From Campylobacterota bacterium (GTDB lineage Bacteria > Campylobacterota > Campylobacteria > Campylobacterales > Sulfurovaceae), in the NCBI GenBank assembly GCA_003252535.1, contig QKDN01000020.1, forward strand, positions 1-64,000: DNA of 64,000 nt. Reading direction: 5' to 3'. The notes beneath the pieces were generated by a model. It did no database searches. It was not told where the DNA came from and worked only from the letters and a program-made list of their open reading frames with translations. Within the stretch, counting starts at the first letter, position 1. Every line of letters begins with the position of its first letter. Below, piece by piece: positions 10 to 9,820 of this stretch. Both the position numbers and the translations under genes were made by a program.

Positions 10-252
10 TTGGATTATAAAGAATTGGTCAGAAACATAAGAAAAGCGGGACTATCTAATAATGAGTTTGCATCGCTCTTAAAGATGTCTCCGAACTCTA
101 TCGCAAATCTTAGACAAAAAGATAGTGTCCCAAAATATCTTGCAATCATTGCAAAACTTATTGGGGAGATGAAAGAGCAAAAAGTAGAGTTCAAATTTTT
201 ATTTGATGATTTAAATATCCAACCTTACCGAAAAAAGAAAGATTATTTTTGA
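10..252 (+). CDS. small helix-turn-helix DNA-binding protein
   Basis: An 80-aa protein whose first 45 residues read as a Cro/XRE-type helix-turn-helix (LSNNEFASLLKMSPNSIANL), followed by a charged tail ending in KKKDYF. The start used is TTG at 10, but upstream sequence is missing, so the true start could lie to the left. It runs into the MT-A70 gene 50 bp downstream on the same strand and may regulate or be cotranscribed with it. Small HTH proteins beside methyltransferases are typical of phage and transposon cargo. The DNA-binding role is inferred from the motif only; the operator is unknown. Confidence 0.6.
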   Translation: MDYKELVRNIRKAGLSNNEFASLLKMSPNSIANLRQKDSVPKYLAIIAKLIGEMKEQKVEFKFLFDDLNIQPYRKKKDYF

Positions 253-302
253 TAAGTGGCTACCCTTATAAAGACATACAAAAGAATAATGAAGGAGAAG
301 AC

Positions 303-932
303 ATGACCGCTAAAATGAATATGGAAAATCCACTGTTCAACTTTGATGAGAATATGTTTGGAAAGTATGACACAATTGTAGTTGATCCACCGTGGAATCA
401 AGGAAAAACTGGACTGCGTAAAAGTAGACCAAATCAAACCAAAGTACTCGACTATTCAACTTTGTCAAAAGAAGAATTGATGCAATTGCCTATCAACGAA
501 CTTGGAAAAGAAAATGCTTTTTTGTTCCTGTGGGCAACAAATAGTAAAGACAAGAAAACCAAAGAACCAATATTGAAAATGGCATTTGATCTGATGGAGC
601 ATTGGGGATATGAGTTCTATACAATGATTACATGGGATAAAAAAACAGGGCCTTGCCCATTTGGTCCTTTCCAAATTGTAACAGAACATATACTTTTTGG
701 ATACAAGGGGAAGTGTTCTTTTAAGAAAGATAAACTTGGATACATGAAAAATATCTTTACGGAATCCGCCAAGGCTCATAGTGTAAAACCCCAATCATTT
801 TATGATGCAATAGCAGAATTTACCGAAGGAGAACGCCTAGATATTTTTTCTCGACAAAATAGAGAAGGTTATAATGGATGGGGAAACGAACATGGAAAAT
901 TAGATATTGATACCCAAAAAGCTGTATCCTAA
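303..932 (+). CDS. MT-A70 family adenine methyltransferase
   Basis: A 209-aa SAM-dependent N6-adenine methyltransferase of the MT-A70 (Ime4/METTL3-like) superfamily, which in bacteria occurs mainly on phages and mobile elements and is thought to modify DNA. The catalytic motif DPPW is at residues 28-31, after a strand KYDTIVV, and LFLWATNSKD follows as the next core segment. ATG at 303 is chosen because GGAGAAG lies just upstream; an in-frame TTG at 249 lacks such a site. There is no partner restriction enzyme next to it, so it looks like an orphan modification enzyme, perhaps for host DNA marking or anti-restriction. The family call is firm; the target sequence is unknown. Confidence 0.85.
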   Translation: MTAKMNMENPLFNFDENMFGKYDTIVVDPPWNQGKTGLRKSRPNQTKVLDYSTLSKEELMQLPINELGKENAFLFLWATNSKDKKTKEPILKMAFDLMEHWGYEFYTMITWDKKTGPCPFGPFQIVTEHILFGYKGKCSFKKDKLGYMKNIFTESAKAHSVKPQSFYDAIAEFTEGERLDIFSRQNREGYNGWGNEHGKLDIDTQKAVS

Positions 933-1906: not shown

Positions 1907-3301
1907 TCAGGTCTGACCGATTCTAATACCACAATCCTGACATAATCTCCAGAGTAGTAGATGAAGTTCGGTATATTTTTTCCTTCGATCTGCTTTTACT
2001 GAGGCTAATGCACTGATCAGGAGCGCTGTTTTTAGAGCTAAATGATAGACTAAGAAGAGGTTCATCCACTTCCTGAGATTGAATGCCGCTGCTGCAAGCA
2101 GCAGATTGATCTCATCTCCGATGAAGCCTTTGAGATAGTTCCTTGATAATCTGTGATCTGCTTTGAGATGTCCAATGATCGGTTCTATGGCTGCTCGTCT
2201 TTTGAACTTCTTTCGTTTTTGTTCCTTTTGATACTTCGTATCCCGTTTAAGCGGTGTGCCCGGGATGCATATCTGGATACCGTCCACCTCTTTCCTGCCC
2301 CTGTATCCCCTGTCGCATATCGCTTCTATGATCGGTTTGGTTCTGTGTCTGGAAGCTGAAGAGAGGGCAGCTTTGAGTGTTTTGGAGTCGTGTTCGTTCT
2401 TTTCATGGGCACTGACCCCTACAATGATACCGCTCTCTTTTGTGGTGACGATGGAAGCCTTGGTACCGTACTCATATTTTTTATGCTCTTTTCCCTTGGC
2501 TATCGCATAGATATGGGGTTCATGCAGGGAGTATATCTTCCCTTTATCTTTTTGTTTCTGGTCTACCACTTTATGAAACAGTGCAAAGGTCTCCTTATAC
2601 TTTTCAAGCTGTTCGGTTGAGAGCTTTCTTGAAATATCCCGGATCAGTATCCCTACAATCGTCTCCAGGCGTTTCATTGCTGCTTTGGCTTTTTTGATCT
2701 TTTTGGGATGTCTGAAGAACCGCAGTGAGATACGGTGTCCTTTGATCTCTTTAACGAATGTCCGTCTTAACTGTATACCCTCTCCCTTTGCGATCCTATG
2801 GAGGTGATGGATCATCCTGATAGCCAGTTTACCATCAGTGGGGTAAGTGATGTTCTTCTCCTGCACGGTTGTATCAACGATCACCGCTTTCTCTTCACTT
2901 ACTTTCCCATGCAGCCCTACACTCATACCGAATATCTTCTCTACTCCCTCTTTACCGATCCGTTGCCTGAACTTCACGAGCTCTGTACTGTCACACGGAA
3001 GTGCGGGAACATACTCGCTCATCCCGCAGAAGTATTGGTAGTAGGGATTTCGTTTCCATTGCAGCACAACATTCTCATCACTCAGGTTCTCAAGCTGTTT
3101 CAACAAAAGAAGTCCTACCATCATTCGTATAGGTTTAGCCGGTCTTCCCTCATTGGAGTAATACTTTACAAACATCTCATTGAATTGTTCCCACTCAATT
3201 GTATCAGCCAAAGCAATAAGCGGATCATTACTATCAAGCATATCTCGAAGTGGTGAATGAAAAAGGTTCAGTTGATTGTTTTTAGAGGTTTTTGGAAGCA
3301 T
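1907..3301 (-). CDS. IS5-family-like DDE transposase
   Basis: A 464-aa transposase that fills the IS. It has an N-terminal DUF772-type region (FVKYYSNEGRPAKPIRMMVG, then a YQYFCG segment) and a DDE catalytic domain with acidic residues in VDTTVQEKN, ICDRGYRGR and AAIEPIIGHLK. A basic patch (KRKKFKRR) precedes the last motif. No frameshift or premature stop is visible, so it should be active. The exact IS5 subgroup needs a comparison with ISfinder entries. Confidence 0.9.
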   Translation of the reverse strand: MLPKTSKNNQLNLFHSPLRDMLDSNDPLIALADTIEWEQFNEMFVKYYSNEGRPAKPIRMMVGLLLLKQLENLSDENVVLQWKRNPYYQYFCGMSEYVPALPCDSTELVKFRQRIGKEGVEKIFGMSVGLHGKVSEEKAVIVDTTVQEKNITYPTDGKLAIRMIHHLHRIAKGEGIQLRRTFVKEIKGHRISLRFFRHPKKIKKAKAAMKRLETIVGILIRDISRKLSTEQLEKYKETFALFHKVVDQKQKDKGKIYSLHEPHIYAIAKGKEHKKYEYGTKASIVTTKESGIIVGVSAHEKNEHDSKTLKAALSSASRHRTKPIIEAICDRGYRGRKEVDGIQICIPGTPLKRDTKYQKEQKRKKFKRRAAIEPIIGHLKADHRLSRNYLKGFIGDEINLLLAAAAFNLRKWMNLFLVYHLALKTALLISALASVKADRRKKYTELHLLLWRLCQDCGIRIGQT

Positions 3302-3742: not shown

Positions 3743-3825
3743 ATTTCCACACAAGAAGACATAATTAAGGAATTATTCTATACAATCGGTAATATTTCCA
3801 TCCTATTGATAAAAAGTGTGGAAAT
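3743..3825. promoter_or_regulatory. inverted repeats in divergent promoter region
   Basis: ATTTCCACAC at 3743-3752 is repeated in reverse complement as GTGTGGAAAT at 3816-3825. A third related copy, TATTTCCA, lies near 3793-3800. The repeats sit between the divergent HTH gene and the lipoprotein gene, with a TATAAT at 3833-3838 beside the last copy. This suggests an operator bound by the neighbouring HTH protein; there is no direct proof. Confidence 0.4.
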
Positions 3826-3851
3826 CAAATTATATAATGGGGCAAAAACAC

Positions 3852-4619
3852 ATGAAACGCACAACCATACTGCTATCTTCCATCATCGCCAGTATCATCC
3901 TGCAAGGCTGCGGCAGCGATAAACCCTCTGAGATTGTAGAGAAATATATCGGGGCATGGAATGACGGAAATATCGAAGAGATTTCGGAATATGCAAGCAA
4001 TGAGTTGGTCCACGAAATCCAGGTCAATATCGATAACTGTATCAGTAATTCGAAAGATAATGAAATAAGCGAAAAATACAAAGCGTATAAAGAGGAAGTC
4101 CGTACCGCCTGGAAGGATTACAACCCGATCGATAACAACCCCGCCCTCGGCGAAAAGAAGGATGAGTTCTTCGAAAAGACCAATACGATCATCGACGATA
4201 AGTCTTTGACCAAAGAACAGAGAACGGAACAATGCGGGATAGTACTGCTCGGATATCTGGGTAATGCCGACGAGGTGAAAAAAAAGCTCAGCCCTACCGC
4301 ATACCGCGCTTTTGCCTATGTCTCTTTCAGTAAACTACTGAATTTGAAGGGTATCTATACGGGCAGCGAAAAAGGGTTCTACAAGCAGATAATCCTCGAA
4401 GAGATCAAAGAGAAAGGGGATGCCGGCGCCAAAAAAGAATGTCTGACGAACTTCTTCAAACCCGGAGATATCAAGAATTTCAATATCGTCGAGACGAAGG
4501 AAATATCACCCGAAAAACAGCTGTTCAATGTTGAACTGGTAAAAAGTCAAGAGAGTGAAAAGAAGGTCATTGGTGTCGAGCTGATCAACAAAGAATGGCG
4601 TGTAGTATCGGCACGCTAG
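3852..4619 (+). CDS. lipoprotein of unknown function
   Basis: A 255-aa lipoprotein. The start at 3852 gives a short basic N-terminus and the lipobox LQGC, so the mature protein is membrane-anchored. After the cysteine comes SDKPSEIVEKYIGAWNDGNI, a helix resembling the opening of the NTF2-like DUF4878 lipoprotein family, then a long charged helical region. The C-terminal part (FNVELVKSQ...VIGVELINKEWRVV) also looks like a DUF4878-type sheet, so it may hold two such domains. In-frame alternatives at 3816 and 3837 would put extra residues before the signal. It is cargo of the accessory block and its role is unknown. Confidence 0.6.
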   Translation: MKRTTILLSSIIASIILQGCGSDKPSEIVEKYIGAWNDGNIEEISEYASNELVHEIQVNIDNCISNSKDNEISEKYKAYKEEVRTAWKDYNPIDNNPALGEKKDEFFEKTNTIIDDKSLTKEQRTEQCGIVLLGYLGNADEVKKKLSPTAYRAFAYVSFSKLLNLKGIYTGSEKGFYKQIILEEIKEKGDAGAKKECLTNFFKPGDIKNFNIVETKEISPEKQLFNVELVKSQESEKKVIGVELINKEWRVVSAR

Positions 4620-4652: not shown

Positions 4653-4790
4653 TCCTAAGTATGTAGCTATCGATACCGTGATCAATCATCTTGCCACCTC
4701 AGGACTATTCGTATTTATGGGCTTGAAGTGTGAATGGATTTCATAAGAATTACCGGGAAGATATTATCCGAATTTTGAGGGTATGTGTGG

Positions 4791-5948
4791 ATGAATCAAA
4801 ATAGTAAATATCTCAATAGGATCGAACACTTAAGTGCTCAGCAGATCGAGGAACTCAAGTCTGAGTACTATTCAAGTGTACCCATTGCGGATATCCTCGA
4901 TAAATATAAGATCAATGTATCTCCAATGAACCTCTGGAAGACTTTCCCTCTCGTAAGTACTCCGCAAAAACAGTGCAAATACTGTGCTTCTGTTATGTAT
5001 GAGGTATCACTGAGCCGGTCTCGCGTCCATAGGAATGAATACCTATGCACAAGATGCTCACACCATGAAAGCCCTTATGGGTGTAGTTGCAAACAATGCC
5101 TGAGGGAAAAGGCACAACAAAAAGAGCAGCAACTCATTGAGCAATCTCTAATGGGCAATGAGCATAGAAAGGCAGTGACGCAGATAAGAGAGTATCCCGG
5201 TGCTCCCTCGCTTGATATGCTCTCACTCAGGGAGAAAGCCTATCTGGGAGCCTTGCTTAGAACCTCTCTCCATCATGACCACCTTTTACTCGATCTTCAA
5301 AGCATCTCATTTCACAATACGGCTCCAACATACAGATATACAAGGATGATAGTTGATACACTGCTTGAAAGAAATATCATCACCCCATACAGACTTGACG
5401 ATCATGAAGACAAACTCATCCTGAATAGATATATTCACGGATCACTCTATGATATCTGCATTAGTGATGATACTCTCGATAAGAGACAAATGATTGTATC
5501 ACTGATGTATCCCGATGAGACGGATCAAAAGGATCAGGCTGCTGAACTTTTTAGAGAGGTCAACAGCTATGATGCAGTGAACTACTTGATGAAGAAAGTG
5601 CAACAGTTCAATCTGAAACGATTTGATCCGGGCGAACGGTACATTGCCCTGTTCTCATATATCCTTCAGTCCTACTCTCTGGGGCAACTGTTAAACTTCA
5701 TCTACCTGACGATCAAGAATCAGGCTGCATATACGGCTCGCAACCGTTATGGTCTTATATCGTTAGAAAATGAAATATTCAATCAGATTTCAAAGCGATT
5801 TGAGAAAGCTCGATCCGAGAATTGGAAAGTAACTAATTACAACCGCTCCTGGGAGGGAGAGCAAAGTGCACTCTCCAGGCTTGTGAGTCATAATCTACTT
5901 GGTGTGGGAGAGAGGGCCTTTTATCAAGTGATAAAGGGTTCCTTCTAA
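4791..5948 (+). CDS. zinc-ribbon protein of unknown function
   Basis: A 385-aa protein with no recognised family. Residues 1-45 are helical (HLSAQQIEELKSEYYSS...), suggesting an HTH-like start. A zinc ribbon follows with CKYC, then YLCTRC, then CSCKQC. The remaining 280 residues are mainly helical, with a segment rich in Leu and Tyr (LFSYILQSYSLGQLLNFIYL) and a terminal SRLVSHNLLGVGERAFYQV. ATG 4791 is preferred because GAGGG at 4777-4781 is well spaced; GTG at 4785 is also in frame. I considered a TnsD/TniQ target selector because of the zinc ribbon and the transposon setting, but the rest does not resemble TniQ. Nucleic-acid binding is a guess. Confidence 0.55.
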   Translation: MNQNSKYLNRIEHLSAQQIEELKSEYYSSVPIADILDKYKINVSPMNLWKTFPLVSTPQKQCKYCASVMYEVSLSRSRVHRNEYLCTRCSHHESPYGCSCKQCLREKAQQKEQQLIEQSLMGNEHRKAVTQIREYPGAPSLDMLSLREKAYLGALLRTSLHHDHLLLDLQSISFHNTAPTYRYTRMIVDTLLERNIITPYRLDDHEDKLILNRYIHGSLYDICISDDTLDKRQMIVSLMYPDETDQKDQAAELFREVNSYDAVNYLMKKVQQFNLKRFDPGERYIALFSYILQSYSLGQLLNFIYLTIKNQAAYTARNRYGLISLENEIFNQISKRFEKARSENWKVTNYNRSWEGEQSALSRLVSHNLLGVGERAFYQVIKGSF

Positions 5949-5952
5949 AAAA

Positions 5953-6828
5953 CTATGGGCGATCCTGCTCTCGTTGTATGAATTTATTGAGATAGTAGAT
6001 ATCCCCTTCACAATAAACTGCTAATTTAGGCATCTTCGACAGAGCATAGATGAAAAATTCTTGCGTTGCTTCATTGGCTTTTTCCAAGGCAGCTTCATGG
6101 AATGTAATCCCCCATCTTGTTTTTTTCTTACCGCTTTTATATGTATTGTCATCTTTTGCCAGTTCCGTATGAGTAGGAGTACCATCTTTACATTCATGTG
6201 GTAAACTCCATGATACAGCACCGCTAATTAAACCATTCTTGACTAGTTTAATAGCTTCTTTTTGTCCATCTTTTCCCCAAAAAATTGGAACAGGTACATC
6301 TTTTAAGGATGAATATTTAACATTCATTAATTCTATATAATTGGAATGTGAATAAAAATCTTGAATAATATGAATAATCTGACCAAGTGTAAAAGCAGCT
6401 TCTTCATAATTACCATATCGAGCATCTTTCTGAGCTTTTATAAAAAGTTGATTGAGGTATTCTACACTTCCTTTAATTACACAATTATCAAAATGTGTTT
6501 CAGAGTCGAAAGCATGAAAAGAGAAGTCCTGAAAGTATTGAGCCCTTAACATTGCTTTTTTACAAATGGTATTTGGAAGTGTATCTATATGGACTCCAGG
6601 GTTAAATTTTATATTCCTACCGCTATGGATTATCTTCATCTTTTGCACATCATTGGATTCAACTATTTGATCAACTTTTTCTTGAATATTAGTCATAGTA
6701 GATGCTTTTTCAAAATCAGATTGATTCTTTGTTGTTTTAGGAGTATCATCATTAGCGAATAAAATTGAAGAATTCACTAATAGTAGGCAACATAGAGACA
6801 CTACACGCAAATTTGTTGATAAAAACAT
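5953..6828 (-). CDS. exported Het-C-like / zinc phospholipase-like protein
   Basis: A 291-aa protein with a signal peptide (VVSLCCLLLVNSSILFA). The central segment LGQIIHIIQDFYSHSNYIEL has the spaced H...D..SHS pattern of Het-C-type proteins, which share a helical metal-binding core with zinc-dependent phospholipases C. Further histidines (FHAFDSETHFDNC, LPHECKD, ITFHEAALEKANE) could complete a metal site. AAAGGA precedes the ATG. The gene is strikingly AT-rich next to its neighbours. It is likely secreted cargo that acts on membranes or other cells. The family assignment is moderately sure; the catalytic activity is not. Confidence 0.55.
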   Translation of the reverse strand: MFLSTNLRVVSLCCLLLVNSSILFANDDTPKTTKNQSDFEKASTMTNIQEKVDQIVESNDVQKMKIIHSGRNIKFNPGVHIDTLPNTICKKAMLRAQYFQDFSFHAFDSETHFDNCVIKGSVEYLNQLFIKAQKDARYGNYEEAAFTLGQIIHIIQDFYSHSNYIELMNVKYSSLKDVPVPIFWGKDGQKEAIKLVKNGLISGAVSWSLPHECKDGTPTHTELAKDDNTYKSGKKKTRWGITFHEAALEKANEATQEFFIYALSKMPKLAVYCEGDIYYLNKFIQREQDRP

Positions 6829-6934
6829 CTTATATCCTTTTTGTATTTTTAATATAAATTATAAATTTAAAGTTTTAAATTATTGCTTTAGTACTAATAA
6901 CAAGACTAGTAGAAAATTTTTACAAAAAAACTTT

Positions 6935-8623
6935 TCACTCATTTCCGCACCTCTTCACCAACGATTCAATATATGAATTCATGTGATGATCTTCTCCTCT
7001 ATGGTTGAACAATATATACCCCTCAACGGGGAAAGTTACACGGTCTTTATTCTGGTTTGAAAACACTCCCTCGTTCTTACGAGTATCCTTGATTATGCAA
7101 TGCAAAAGGTCTTCATCCAGCTTAACATCCCTATAAAACGCAATTCCCTTATAACTCTCACTGCTCCAATACCTCTCGATATCCAAAATATAGAGATATT
7201 TCCCATTCAATAGTATTTCACAAACAAGAAGCTGTCTCGGTCGCTTATTGATTGTTGCCCATGAATACTCTCCTCCACCCTCTAGCTCACAAAACTGTAC
7301 TTCGCGTGCCCTTAAACAATCATTGTTCAAAAAGAACCTATCCACCTTTAAGAGGTCAATAGCATCGATGATACTTTTCATCACACTATCAATAGGGTAC
7401 TCACTTCGATCAGGACGAAAATCCACCCCACTGACATTTTCTGATTCCACTTGCCCCGTGAGTTCTGAAGCTGCTGCCGAGATTGCTTCTGTTTGCTCCT
7501 TGGCAATATATTGAGTAGTGGCATTGCTCCTTGTACTTGATCTTTTAGACTGAGTGCGAACTTTATCAATTCCTCTGATATCAATCCTTGCCTTGATATA
7601 CTTTATCCCTGCCCTCGTTCCTGCATCAATACTATTGTTTAACTCGACATCATGATTGATAGGGTCTGTATTAGGCAGAGTCTTCTTATACTCCTTCTCA
7701 GGCTTATCCGCTTGATCAACCACTTTCTCCTCGTTTGTAAGCACTATCACATCATTATCATCAGGCAATGAATAAGAATCGATCGTAGATACCCAAAAGA
7801 CTCTATCATTTTTGGTGTGTACTCCAGAGGCTGAAATGGAAAATGTGCTTGGATGGTAAGGGAACATGGCTGGAATCTTATAGTCGATACCATGCAGAGA
7901 TAGAGTCGTATCAGAGTTAATGATATTGGATCTGATTTTTGAAACATTTTCTCTAGTCATATTATTACAAGCCAGATAGGCAAGAAATACACTTGTACTA
8001 GCCCTATGATTCTTCTCTAGTCCTATCACATACTCGTATTCATCAGATATGCCTGATTCACTCAGATGTTCTGGTAATATATCTTCATCTACATTAGAAT
8101 AGCTTAGTAACTCTTCAAGAATTGTATGTGTCTCAGGAACATAAGTTGAAACAAATATCTCTAAGGAAGGGATCAACACTATTTGCCCATTTGTAGTCAC
8201 GAATCCCGTATAAGAGGCTAAAAACTCATGCCTCCCTCTATTATACTCCATAAGAGGTATCACAGCTTTATTCTCTGCCCCTTTCGATCGATCTTGCACA
8301 AGGCACATGATCTGAGCCTTGCTAGAGTTCAAATTGAATGAACGCCTCGATTTATAGACAAATCCTTCCTTGACGCTCTCTACTCGATCGTAAAGCAGTT
8401 TTTGATTCTTCCAAACACTATCTATCCGCAACGCAAGCAGATAGGCTATACGCACCTCAATAGTGAGTGCCTGATTGGTGTTGATATTCTCCAAGACCAC
8501 TTGAACTAAAAAGCCCGTTGCATGGACGGACGGATTCTTTCTCATCAACCCATACCACTTCACTACATATTCTTTATCATCCATCGGGAGTGACGGTATA
8601 CTAAATGTTTCTTCTTTTTCCAT
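6935..8623 (-). CDS. tnsE: TnsE-like Tn7 transposition protein
   Basis: A 562-aa protein resembling Tn7 TnsE in length and layout. The N-terminal domain contains KWYGLMRKNPSVHATGFLVQ. A variable linker rich in charged residues follows, and then a C-terminal domain with LLVCEILLNGKYLYILDIER and a terminal HRGEDHH segment, comparable to the HRG..H segment I recall in TnsE. In Tn7, TnsE directs insertion into conjugating plasmids and lagging-strand DNA and contacts the sliding clamp. The ATG lies only 51 bp from the transposon tip, reads inward, and has no clear ribosome binding site. No tnsA, tnsB, tnsC or tnsD gene is in the window. The call comes from memory of the family and needs an HMM check. 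Confidence 0.68.
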   Translation of the reverse strand: MEKEETFSIPSLPMDDKEYVVKWYGLMRKNPSVHATGFLVQVVLENINTNQALTIEVRIAYLLALRIDSVWKNQKLLYDRVESVKEGFVYKSRRSFNLNSSKAQIMCLVQDRSKGAENKAVIPLMEYNRGRHEFLASYTGFVTTNGQIVLIPSLEIFVSTYVPETHTILEELLSYSNVDEDILPEHLSESGISDEYEYVIGLEKNHRASTSVFLAYLACNNMTRENVSKIRSNIINSDTTLSLHGIDYKIPAMFPYHPSTFSISASGVHTKNDRVFWVSTIDSYSLPDDNDVIVLTNEEKVVDQADKPEKEYKKTLPNTDPINHDVELNNSIDAGTRAGIKYIKARIDIRGIDKVRTQSKRSSTRSNATTQYIAKEQTEAISAAASELTGQVESENVSGVDFRPDRSEYPIDSVMKSIIDAIDLLKVDRFFLNNDCLRAREVQFCELEGGGEYSWATINKRPRQLLVCEILLNGKYLYILDIERYWSSESYKGIAFYRDVKLDEDLLHCIIKDTRKNEGVFSNQNKDRVTFPVEGYILFNHRGEDHHMNSYIESLVKRCGNE

Positions 8624-8628
8624 ATCCG

Positions 8629-8674
8629 TTTATCACTATTAATTGGAATTTATCATTTTTAGTTGGAAGTGACA
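8629..8674 (-). repeat. Tn7-like transposon terminus with tandem TnsB-type sites
   Basis: Read on the minus strand the element begins TGTCAC, followed by two abutting 20-bp repeats, TTCCAACTAAAAATGATAAA (8668-8649) and TTCCAATTAATAGTGATAAA (8648-8629), which differ at three positions. Terminal TGT and abutting sites of about 20 bp match the right end of Tn7-like elements, where TnsB binds. The comM reading frame is lost exactly at this TGT. The tip is therefore at 8674, with host DNA from 8675. The opposite end is outside the window. Confidence 0.75.
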
Positions 8675-9619
8675 TCCACCGCCGAATATCGAAGCACTCG
8701 TGGCGGTATGGTGTGGAGACCTGATGGGACGGGCAGCGCTGAAATCTGCCTTCGCGCCGCTGAGGAACTGGTGCTTGGCTATCGAGAGTATCTCTTCTTC
8801 GCTCAGGGGAGGGAGGATGTCGCGTAGCCTCTTGGCGATCATGCTCTTGCCGCAGCCGGGGTTCCCCTCCATCATGAAGTTGTGCATCCCTGCGGCCGCT
8901 ATCAGGGAGGCTCTCTTGGCGATCCCCTGCCCCTTGACATCGCCGAAATCGCTCGGGTAACTCGACTCGTGGTAGTACGGTGTGCTGCCCACCTCGACTC
9001 TCCTGGCCTTGTAGTCGAACGAACTGCTGTGCTCTTCGAAGCTCTTGCTCCCCATCAGCTCTATCGCCCGTGTCAGGTCCTCCACGGCGATGAAGGAGAC
9101 CCCGGCGATATGGCCGAGATGGGCTATCGCCTCTTTGGGGACGATGGCACGTTTGATCAGCCCCTGCTCCTTGAGCGAGAGGATGAGGGGAAAGAGCATC
9201 GAGCTGCTCTTGATCCGCCCGTCGAGCCCCAGCTCCCCGAATACGAAGAGCCCCTCCTCGTCGATCACCCCCTTGTACAGGGCGATCAGCAGCGCGATGG
9301 GGAGATCGAAGTGGGTACCGCTCTTGTGGGGGATATCGCTCGGAGAGAGATTGATCGTGATCTTGAGCGGAGGGAAGATGAAGCCGTTGGTCAGCAGGGC
9401 GGACTTGACCCGCTCTCTGGCCTCCTGTATGTCGCTCCCTGCCAGCCCCACGACCGCAAATCCGGGCAATCCCCTCGTAAAGGTCGCCTCCACCTCTATC
9501 ACCCGGGCTACCGCCCCCTCCAGCGTGGCGCAGTGGAGGCGGTTGACGATGCTTTTGTCCGGTGTGATCAGAGTATCCTGTTGTGTCTGTGTCGTTTCAT
9601 CTGTGATATGCTTTTCCAT
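8639..9619 (-). pseudogene. comM: comM (YifB) interrupted by the transposon, 5' part
   Basis: The first 315 codons of a ComM/YifB Mg-chelatase-like AAA+ helicase, which promotes branch migration during natural transformation. The usual length is about 500. The YifB N-terminal domain (TRGLPGFAVVGLAGSDIQEARERV; INLSPSDIPHKSGTHFDL) and the Walker A motif (EGNPGCGKSMIAKR) are present. The match ends after RSPHHTATSASIFGGG, just before the Walker B region, where the frame enters the transposon tip at 8674 and stops after eleven foreign residues at 8639. The remainder must lie beyond the other end of the element. The N-terminus carries about 25 residues more than usual. The fragment is probably non-functional. 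Confidence 0.85.
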
Positions 9620-9820
9620 ACCCTATCATAGCGACAAGATATCACAATGCAAAATAGAATTTCATTTTGACACCAAATTTGATCCATTTCGATCATGATA
9701 TTCACATCTGATCTTGCCGGAACCTTCAGAAATGCTCAAAATCACGATCTGAAAATATCCAAAAACAAGTTCATTATCAAAATCGGGTTATAATTGACAA
9801 TAAGGCTATGGAGTATTTCA

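Follow-up and report, generated by a model that had tools for sequence, protein, structure and literature searches.

A divergent tnsE beside the tip of a Tn6022-like transposon in comM of a Campylobacterota bacterium

The sections of Faure et al. 2023 (PMC10293859) that deal with Tn6022-like elements report TnsA, TnsB, TnsC, TniQ, TnsF and TnsE together in comM, with TnsE close to the left end, at a distance from the remaining genes and encoded on the other strand. The same sections give 552 TnsEs in all, identify the TnsF of Tn6022 as an inactive tyrosine recombinase, and map Tn6022 targeting to Walker B. In the part of a review that covers TnsE (PMC11406308), TnsE homologues are described as almost universal in comM-targeting elements and the TnsE of Tn7 as the route to replicating or conjugal DNA, with no mechanistic information on TnsE outside Tn7. 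This layout was also seen by inspection in the Acinetobacter plasmid pA1429c, where tnsE lies about 100 bp inside a TGTCAGTTCC tip and tnsB and tnsC are at the other side.

We analyzed a window of 64,000 nt from a Sulfurovaceae genome of the Campylobacterota (G000:C50:1-64000), which opens at the first base of its contig. The features at its left-hand side, of which the first five are cargo genes of the element, are as follows:

249..932, plus strand: MT-A70-type DNA methyltransferase (Pfam)
1907..3301, minus strand: IS5-family transposase (NF033578, 2.6e-135)
3816..4619, plus strand: 267-aa protein, DUF4878-like below the cut-off (Pfam)
4785..5948, plus strand: 387-aa protein, no family found (Pfam, NCBIfam)
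5953..6828, minus strand: 291-aa protein with a VWA7_N / zinc-dependent phospholipase C-like region (PF25107, 8.8e-13)
6935..8623, minus strand: tnsE (Tn6022-type), intact ORF of 562 aa, first gene inside the left end and reading inward (hhalign, C-terminal fold, homologues)
8629..8674, minus strand: left end, tip TGTCAC followed by the abutting 20-bp TnsB-type sites L1 (8668-8649) and L2 (8648-8629) (matrix scores)
8675..8679, minus strand: 5-bp target-site duplication, GTGGA on this strand (same 5 bp beyond the other tip on contig C21 of the same genome)
8675..9619, minus strand: 5' part of comM (yifB), broken after ...SIFGGG (frame enters the element)

Ends, target duplication and core genes

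On the minus strand, the 5' part of comM, a DNA-uptake gene, ends ...ATATTCGGCGGTGGA and gives way to TGTCACTTCC..., which places the tip of the element at base 8674. The tnsE ATG is at 8623, 51 bp inside this tip. The frame of comM continues into the element and reaches a stop at 8639-8641, 36 bp inside the tip and 15 nt before the tnsE ATG. With a weight matrix derived from the ends of five other elements, L1 scores 22.1 and L2 scores 20.6; L2 ends 5 bp upstream of the tnsE ATG.

A search of the same genome for the ComM family recovered the missing half of the gene at 18043-18672 of contig C21. The tip at 8674 is not a matter of chance, because the element next to this other half ends in an inverted counterpart of the window's end, TGTCATTTCC (identical at 11 of 12 bases), after which the same GTGGA follows. 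When rejoined, the two halves of comM gave one open frame of about 528 codons, reading ...SASIFGGGSREAKIGEVALAHKGILFFDELP... across the junction. The original prediction of a transposon tip in comM, 51 bp before tnsE, was thereby confirmed by the inverted end, the duplication and the restored frame.

The genes tnsA, tnsB, tnsC, tniQ and tnsF lie just before the comM half on C21, all as open frames on the minus strand and reading away from comM. Pfam matches were obtained for TnsA (PF08722, 3.9e-18), TnsB (Mu-transposase C-terminal, PF09299, 9.8e-7), TnsC (TniB, PF05621, 4.7e-63) and the short, 394-aa TniQ (PF06527, 1.6e-20). TnsF is a 487-aa protein with N-terminal zinc fingers and 12 CxxC pairs, whose gene overlaps the end of tniQ and which matched by tblastn (E 1e-26) a gene near tniQ in Acinetobacter pAB3. 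TnsB is present in a single copy in the genome. The cargo at the core-gene end (C21, 550-11173) includes type III restriction-modification genes (mod, res) with a Pycsar cyclase and the membrane effector PycTM between them, along with a DUF4391 protein and an HKD+Snf2 helicase. With no overlap between C50 and C21, the central part of the element is missing from the assembly. The element measures at least 8,674 + 18,040 bp, and the case for joining the two contigs is made by the comM halves, the duplication and the agreement of the two ends.

The gene content and ends agree with those of the Tn6022-like, comM-targeting group: TnsA, TnsB, TnsC, a short TniQ and a TnsF adjoining tniQ are all present, the insertion is in comM with a 5-bp duplication and TG..CA ends, and tnsE is near the left end on the strand opposite the core genes. 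As in Tn6022 and AbaR of Acinetobacter, tnsABC-tniQ-tnsF run from one end, tnsE comes first at the other and reads inward, and the comM insertion is near Walker B. The differences lie in the Campylobacterota host, in sequence (about 20% identity in TnsE, 36% in TnsB), in the tip sites (TTCCAAYTAAAAATGATAAA here) and in the cargo, here type III restriction-modification and Pycsar. With Tn7 (tnsABCDE, glmS) the element shares the TnsABC core, TG tips, repeated TnsB-type sites and a TnsE homologue with the same modelled C-terminal fold. In Tn7, however, tnsE comes last, after tnsABCD, whereas it is at the opposite end here, and TniQ plus TnsF and comM stand in place of TnsD and glmS.

From these sequence comparisons, the window very probably contains the left end of a Tn6022-like (comM-homing) Tn7-type transposon that is complete, with the 562-aa ORF as its TnsE. 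A lone TnsE near a terminus had been considered unusual in the original prediction; for the Tn6022-like family this is wrong, as judged from the sections of PMC10293859 cited above and from the Acinetobacter plasmid copy. A tip-located tnsE is the ordinary layout of this family, here found in Campylobacterota, and the published layout explains its apparent oddness.

Identity of the 562-aa protein

Judged by profile-profile comparison and a modelled C-terminal fold, the 562-aa ORF is a very divergent TnsE. Conventional searches with it gave nothing above noise in Pfam or NCBIfam (E<=1), no sequence match by phmmer against the PDB, and no relative in a scan of the viral_contigs set. PF18623 (Pfam TnsE_C) matched neither the window protein nor any other protein across the whole genome; the positive control, Tn7 TnsE, scored 6.7e-54. 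Sub-cut-off matches to PF18623 were found at the expected place in three of eight members of the TnsE family (best 9.3e-4). A single-sequence search of 98 relatives besides the own genome returned nothing below E 0.0199, and a profile built from eight relatives gave only weak unrelated matches in the PDB.

Homologues were found in plasmids and in a small number of Campylobacterota genomes. The plasmid tblastn returned 113 records, comprising one Aliarcobacter homologue (25.6% identity over 95%, E 1e-29), 111 Acinetobacter records (E 0.3 among the matches listed) and one Proteus record. The 562-aa-type TnsE is carried by 6 of 397 Campylobacterota genomes, the own genome included, where it is the one copy found. 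Eight TnsE proteins of this type could be aligned over their whole length.

For the comparison with Tn7, a profile of 10 sequences of the window's TnsE family was aligned with one of nine Tn7-type TnsEs, a collection begun from Tn7 in an E. coli genome. A Klebsiella plasmid was rejected as the Tn7 source, as it carries a TnsB-TnsC-invertase element without an annotated tnsE. hhalign gave 92.6% probability (E 4.5e-7) over 368 collinear columns, and 90.9% in the reverse direction; the control alignments of TnsF and TnsB reached 0.4% and 0.1%.

The full-length AlphaFold model of the protein had a pLDDT of 34, and the N-terminal part, which in TnsE holds SSB/PriB-like domains, yielded no usable model. 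The C-terminal 163 residues gave a model of moderate confidence (pLDDT 60.8, pTM 0.60). When this model was compared with 350,542 PDB chains by Foldseek, ranks 1-7 were all TnsE (5d17, 5d16, 9d5l), with probabilities of 0.44-0.85 and E-values of 0.15-0.46, none of which is significant alone. VIA-align likewise placed three TnsE entries at the top, with Z of 8.3, 8.1 and 8.0 over 135-142 of the 163 residues; the next unrelated entry had 7.7 over fewer residues.

The lack of any Pfam, NCBIfam or PDB sequence match for the window protein is what would be seen if it were unrelated cargo or a new target selector merely resembling TnsE. We consider this very improbable, as the profile-profile and fold results, with their controls, point to TnsE, and proteins of this type are constantly present with tnsABC-tniQ-tnsF. 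The prediction of a TnsE-like protein as the first inward-reading gene inside a transposon end therefore stands on the ORF, the profile-profile comparison and the C-terminal fold; the proposed HMM check gave no PF18623 match for the window protein itself, and it was the profile-profile comparison and the C-terminal fold that identified TnsE. It is just as hard to sustain that the element is defective or composite and that its lone tip tnsE could be moved only in trans, which was one of two explanations originally offered. The window does lack tnsABC, and orphans of this sort exist, since an Aliarcobacter plasmid carries tnsE about 50 bp from a TGACAT tip and has no TnsB. Against this, C21 carries tnsA, tnsB, tnsC, tniQ and tnsF as open frames, the second end and the same duplication, and TnsB is single-copy, so the defective-element explanation is refuted already at the level of gene content. 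The other explanation, a rearranged layout with the core genes at the far end, was borne out: with the window starting at the contig start, tnsABC, tniQ and the second end were all found on C21 and belong to the same element. The tnsE gene is isolated within the window only.

Campylobacterota relatives and their positions in comM

TnsA, TnsB, TnsC, TniQ, TnsF and a split ComM were detected in all five other Campylobacterota genomes with the 562-aa-type TnsE, and TnsF is present in exactly the same 6 of 397 genomes as this TnsE. These comM-borne Tn7-type elements, from Sulfurimonas, Arcobacter and other Campylobacterota (G437, G361, G355, G370, G201), share the gene set and the same kind of end motif, and the six elements form one clade in the TnsB tree (100/98). 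The element lengths range from 15.7 to 36.1 kb. From the left tip, tnsE is 51 bp away in the own element and 391, 7,875, 10,982, 11,659 and 27,470 bp away in the five relatives, so its place at the tip is not fixed. The constant feature is that tnsE reads toward the core genes.

Several other arrangements were observed among these and related elements. At L033:9986-17890 and L030:6011-13921, tnsE directly abuts tnsF and the cargo is on the left-end side; the tnsF proteins of these two genomes are 99.8% identical, indicating a recently shared core. The Aliarcobacter plasmid pCNAC48 (L015:14918-16749), the only plasmid copy of the 562-aa-type TnsE found in Campylobacterota, carries tnsE with an orphan left end, possibly left by a former insertion into the plasmid; TnsB is absent from this plasmid, and no matching right end was found within the 31.7 kb covered. 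A Methylobacter plasmid (L043, 19292-25306) has a TnsABC-TniQ-TnsF element beside conjugation genes, and tblastn detected no TnsE within the 41.8 kb covered.

At least two positions in comM are used by the Campylobacterota elements. The insertions in G000, G361 and G201 follow ...ASIFGGG, at a distance of exactly 42 nt upstream from the Walker B codons (GILFFDELP). In G355 and G437 it is 161 and 196 nt downstream of Walker B. The left flank of the G370 element is at the G355 place; this element is composite, because its outermost right end is elsewhere and there are two copies of tnsA. The same G370 genome (Arcobacter caeni; L028:17968-20000 into L029:1-44) has a tnsB fragment and two nested right ends, where comM-borne Tn7-type elements have piled up.

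The downstream inserters (three of the five relatives; L022/L023, L026/L038, L028/L039), at about 160-196 nt past Walker B, have TnsF proteins of 386, 390 and 431 aa vs 485 to 487 aa, without the first N-terminal zinc fingers. Retargeting with a shortened TnsF is what the six elements suggest from their sequences. A single TnsF clade of all downstream inserters was unsupported: G370 and G355 group together and G437 is not firmly joined to them. A second comM position is not mentioned in the sections of PMC10293859 that treat Tn6022 targeting, nor elsewhere in the mainly open-access literature searched.

Beyond the homology, gene set, ends, duplication and restored comM observed here, work on Tn7 and Tn6022 suggests that such an element could use two transposition pathways. 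By this analogy, TniQ and TnsF would have guided the element to its place in comM, 42 nt upstream of Walker B. TnsE would be the other target selector and, as it does in Tn7, bring TnsABC to replicating (conjugal plasmid) DNA.

A TnsB-type site in front of tnsE

Each left end of the Campylobacterota elements opens with TGTCAN, after which come two 20-bp sites placed end to end (resembling TTCCAAYTAAAAATGATAAA in the own element); G201 has a degenerate second site. For each element, a weight matrix was trained on the ends of the other five, with only 15 sites per run and the ends defined by the analyst. Every non-end ORF of 100 aa or more was then ranked by the score of its upstream stretch on the left-end strand, and tnsE came first in all five relatives. 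The score of the site directly before tnsE, the number of ORFs ranked, and the number of shuffled tnsE upstream stretches reaching the score per 5,000 are:

G437: 21.4 bits, first of 18 ORFs, 0 shuffles
G361: 18.7 bits, first of 45 ORFs, 0 shuffles
G201: 18.3 bits, first of 31 ORFs, 1 shuffle
G370: 21.2 bits, first of 21 ORFs, 0 shuffles
G355: 5.7 bits, first of 10 ORFs, 121 shuffles

The site in G370 overlaps an upstream start codon that is probably miscalled. For the own element and the Aliarcobacter plasmid, the transposon end itself supplies the two sites that precede tnsE. A second internal TnsB-type site of equal score is present in G201; it is located 5703 bp inside the left tip, before a 186-aa ORF, and is on the opposite strand. 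The matrix gave no strong site in the Acinetobacter pAB3 stretch, where the end motif differs from that of the Campylobacterota elements. The internal sites were also considered as hidden transposon tips, which was rejected: the six preceding bases lack the TG of a tip, and the sites are accordingly not transposon ends.

The site persists in elements whose tnsE is remote from the tip, which suggests that predicted TnsB binding before tnsE may control this gene. Given 15 training sites per run and analyst-defined ends, the result is a strong lead, not proof. No description of a TnsB-type site travelling with tnsE was found in the mainly open-access literature searched. The hint of a different regulation in the original prediction gains some support from this site.

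The main rival to such control is that the site is a relic of an older left end, stranded by the entry of cargo between tnsE and the outer sites and lacking any control function, a serious possibility that we place somewhat below even. Both explanations predict the same orientation of the site. The G437 site, about 320 bp inside the two outer sites, is where a third left-end site might be, and the weak G355 site (5.7 bits) is what the decay of a relic would give. A relic should decay, however, and in all five relatives no more than about 40 bp separate the site from the tnsE ATG, with tnsE 0.4 to 27 kb from the tip; the missing TG tip of the internal sites also argues against an older end.

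If TnsB does bind in front of tnsE, a broader scheme can be drawn, though we regard it as rather unlikely. In comM-homing Tn7-type elements, tnsE would be its own transcription unit under a TnsB operator, tying plasmid jumping to the level of transposase. In the own element this operator would be the transposon end, and TnsE would be made from the comM message, as the frame of comM enters the element and ends 15 nt short of tnsE. Apart from any operator, tnsE may be expressed together with comM in the host, since both genes have the same orientation and 15 nt separate the comM-frame stop from the tnsE start. When 6850-9750 was scanned for promoters, no promoter-like site on the minus strand turned up between the comM start and tnsE.

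The puzzle of the tnsE gene at the tip is answered by the Tn6022 layout, now seen in a Campylobacterota element. Two testable leads are added: a regulatory one, the TnsB-type site before tnsE, and a target-site one, TnsF and the position in comM. The elements with a shortened TnsF at other places in comM would allow target reading by TnsF to be studied in naturally occurring variants. If the operator scheme is true, the plasmid-jumping pathway would be switched by the assembly of the transposon end and by the expression of comM, the gene to which the element homes.
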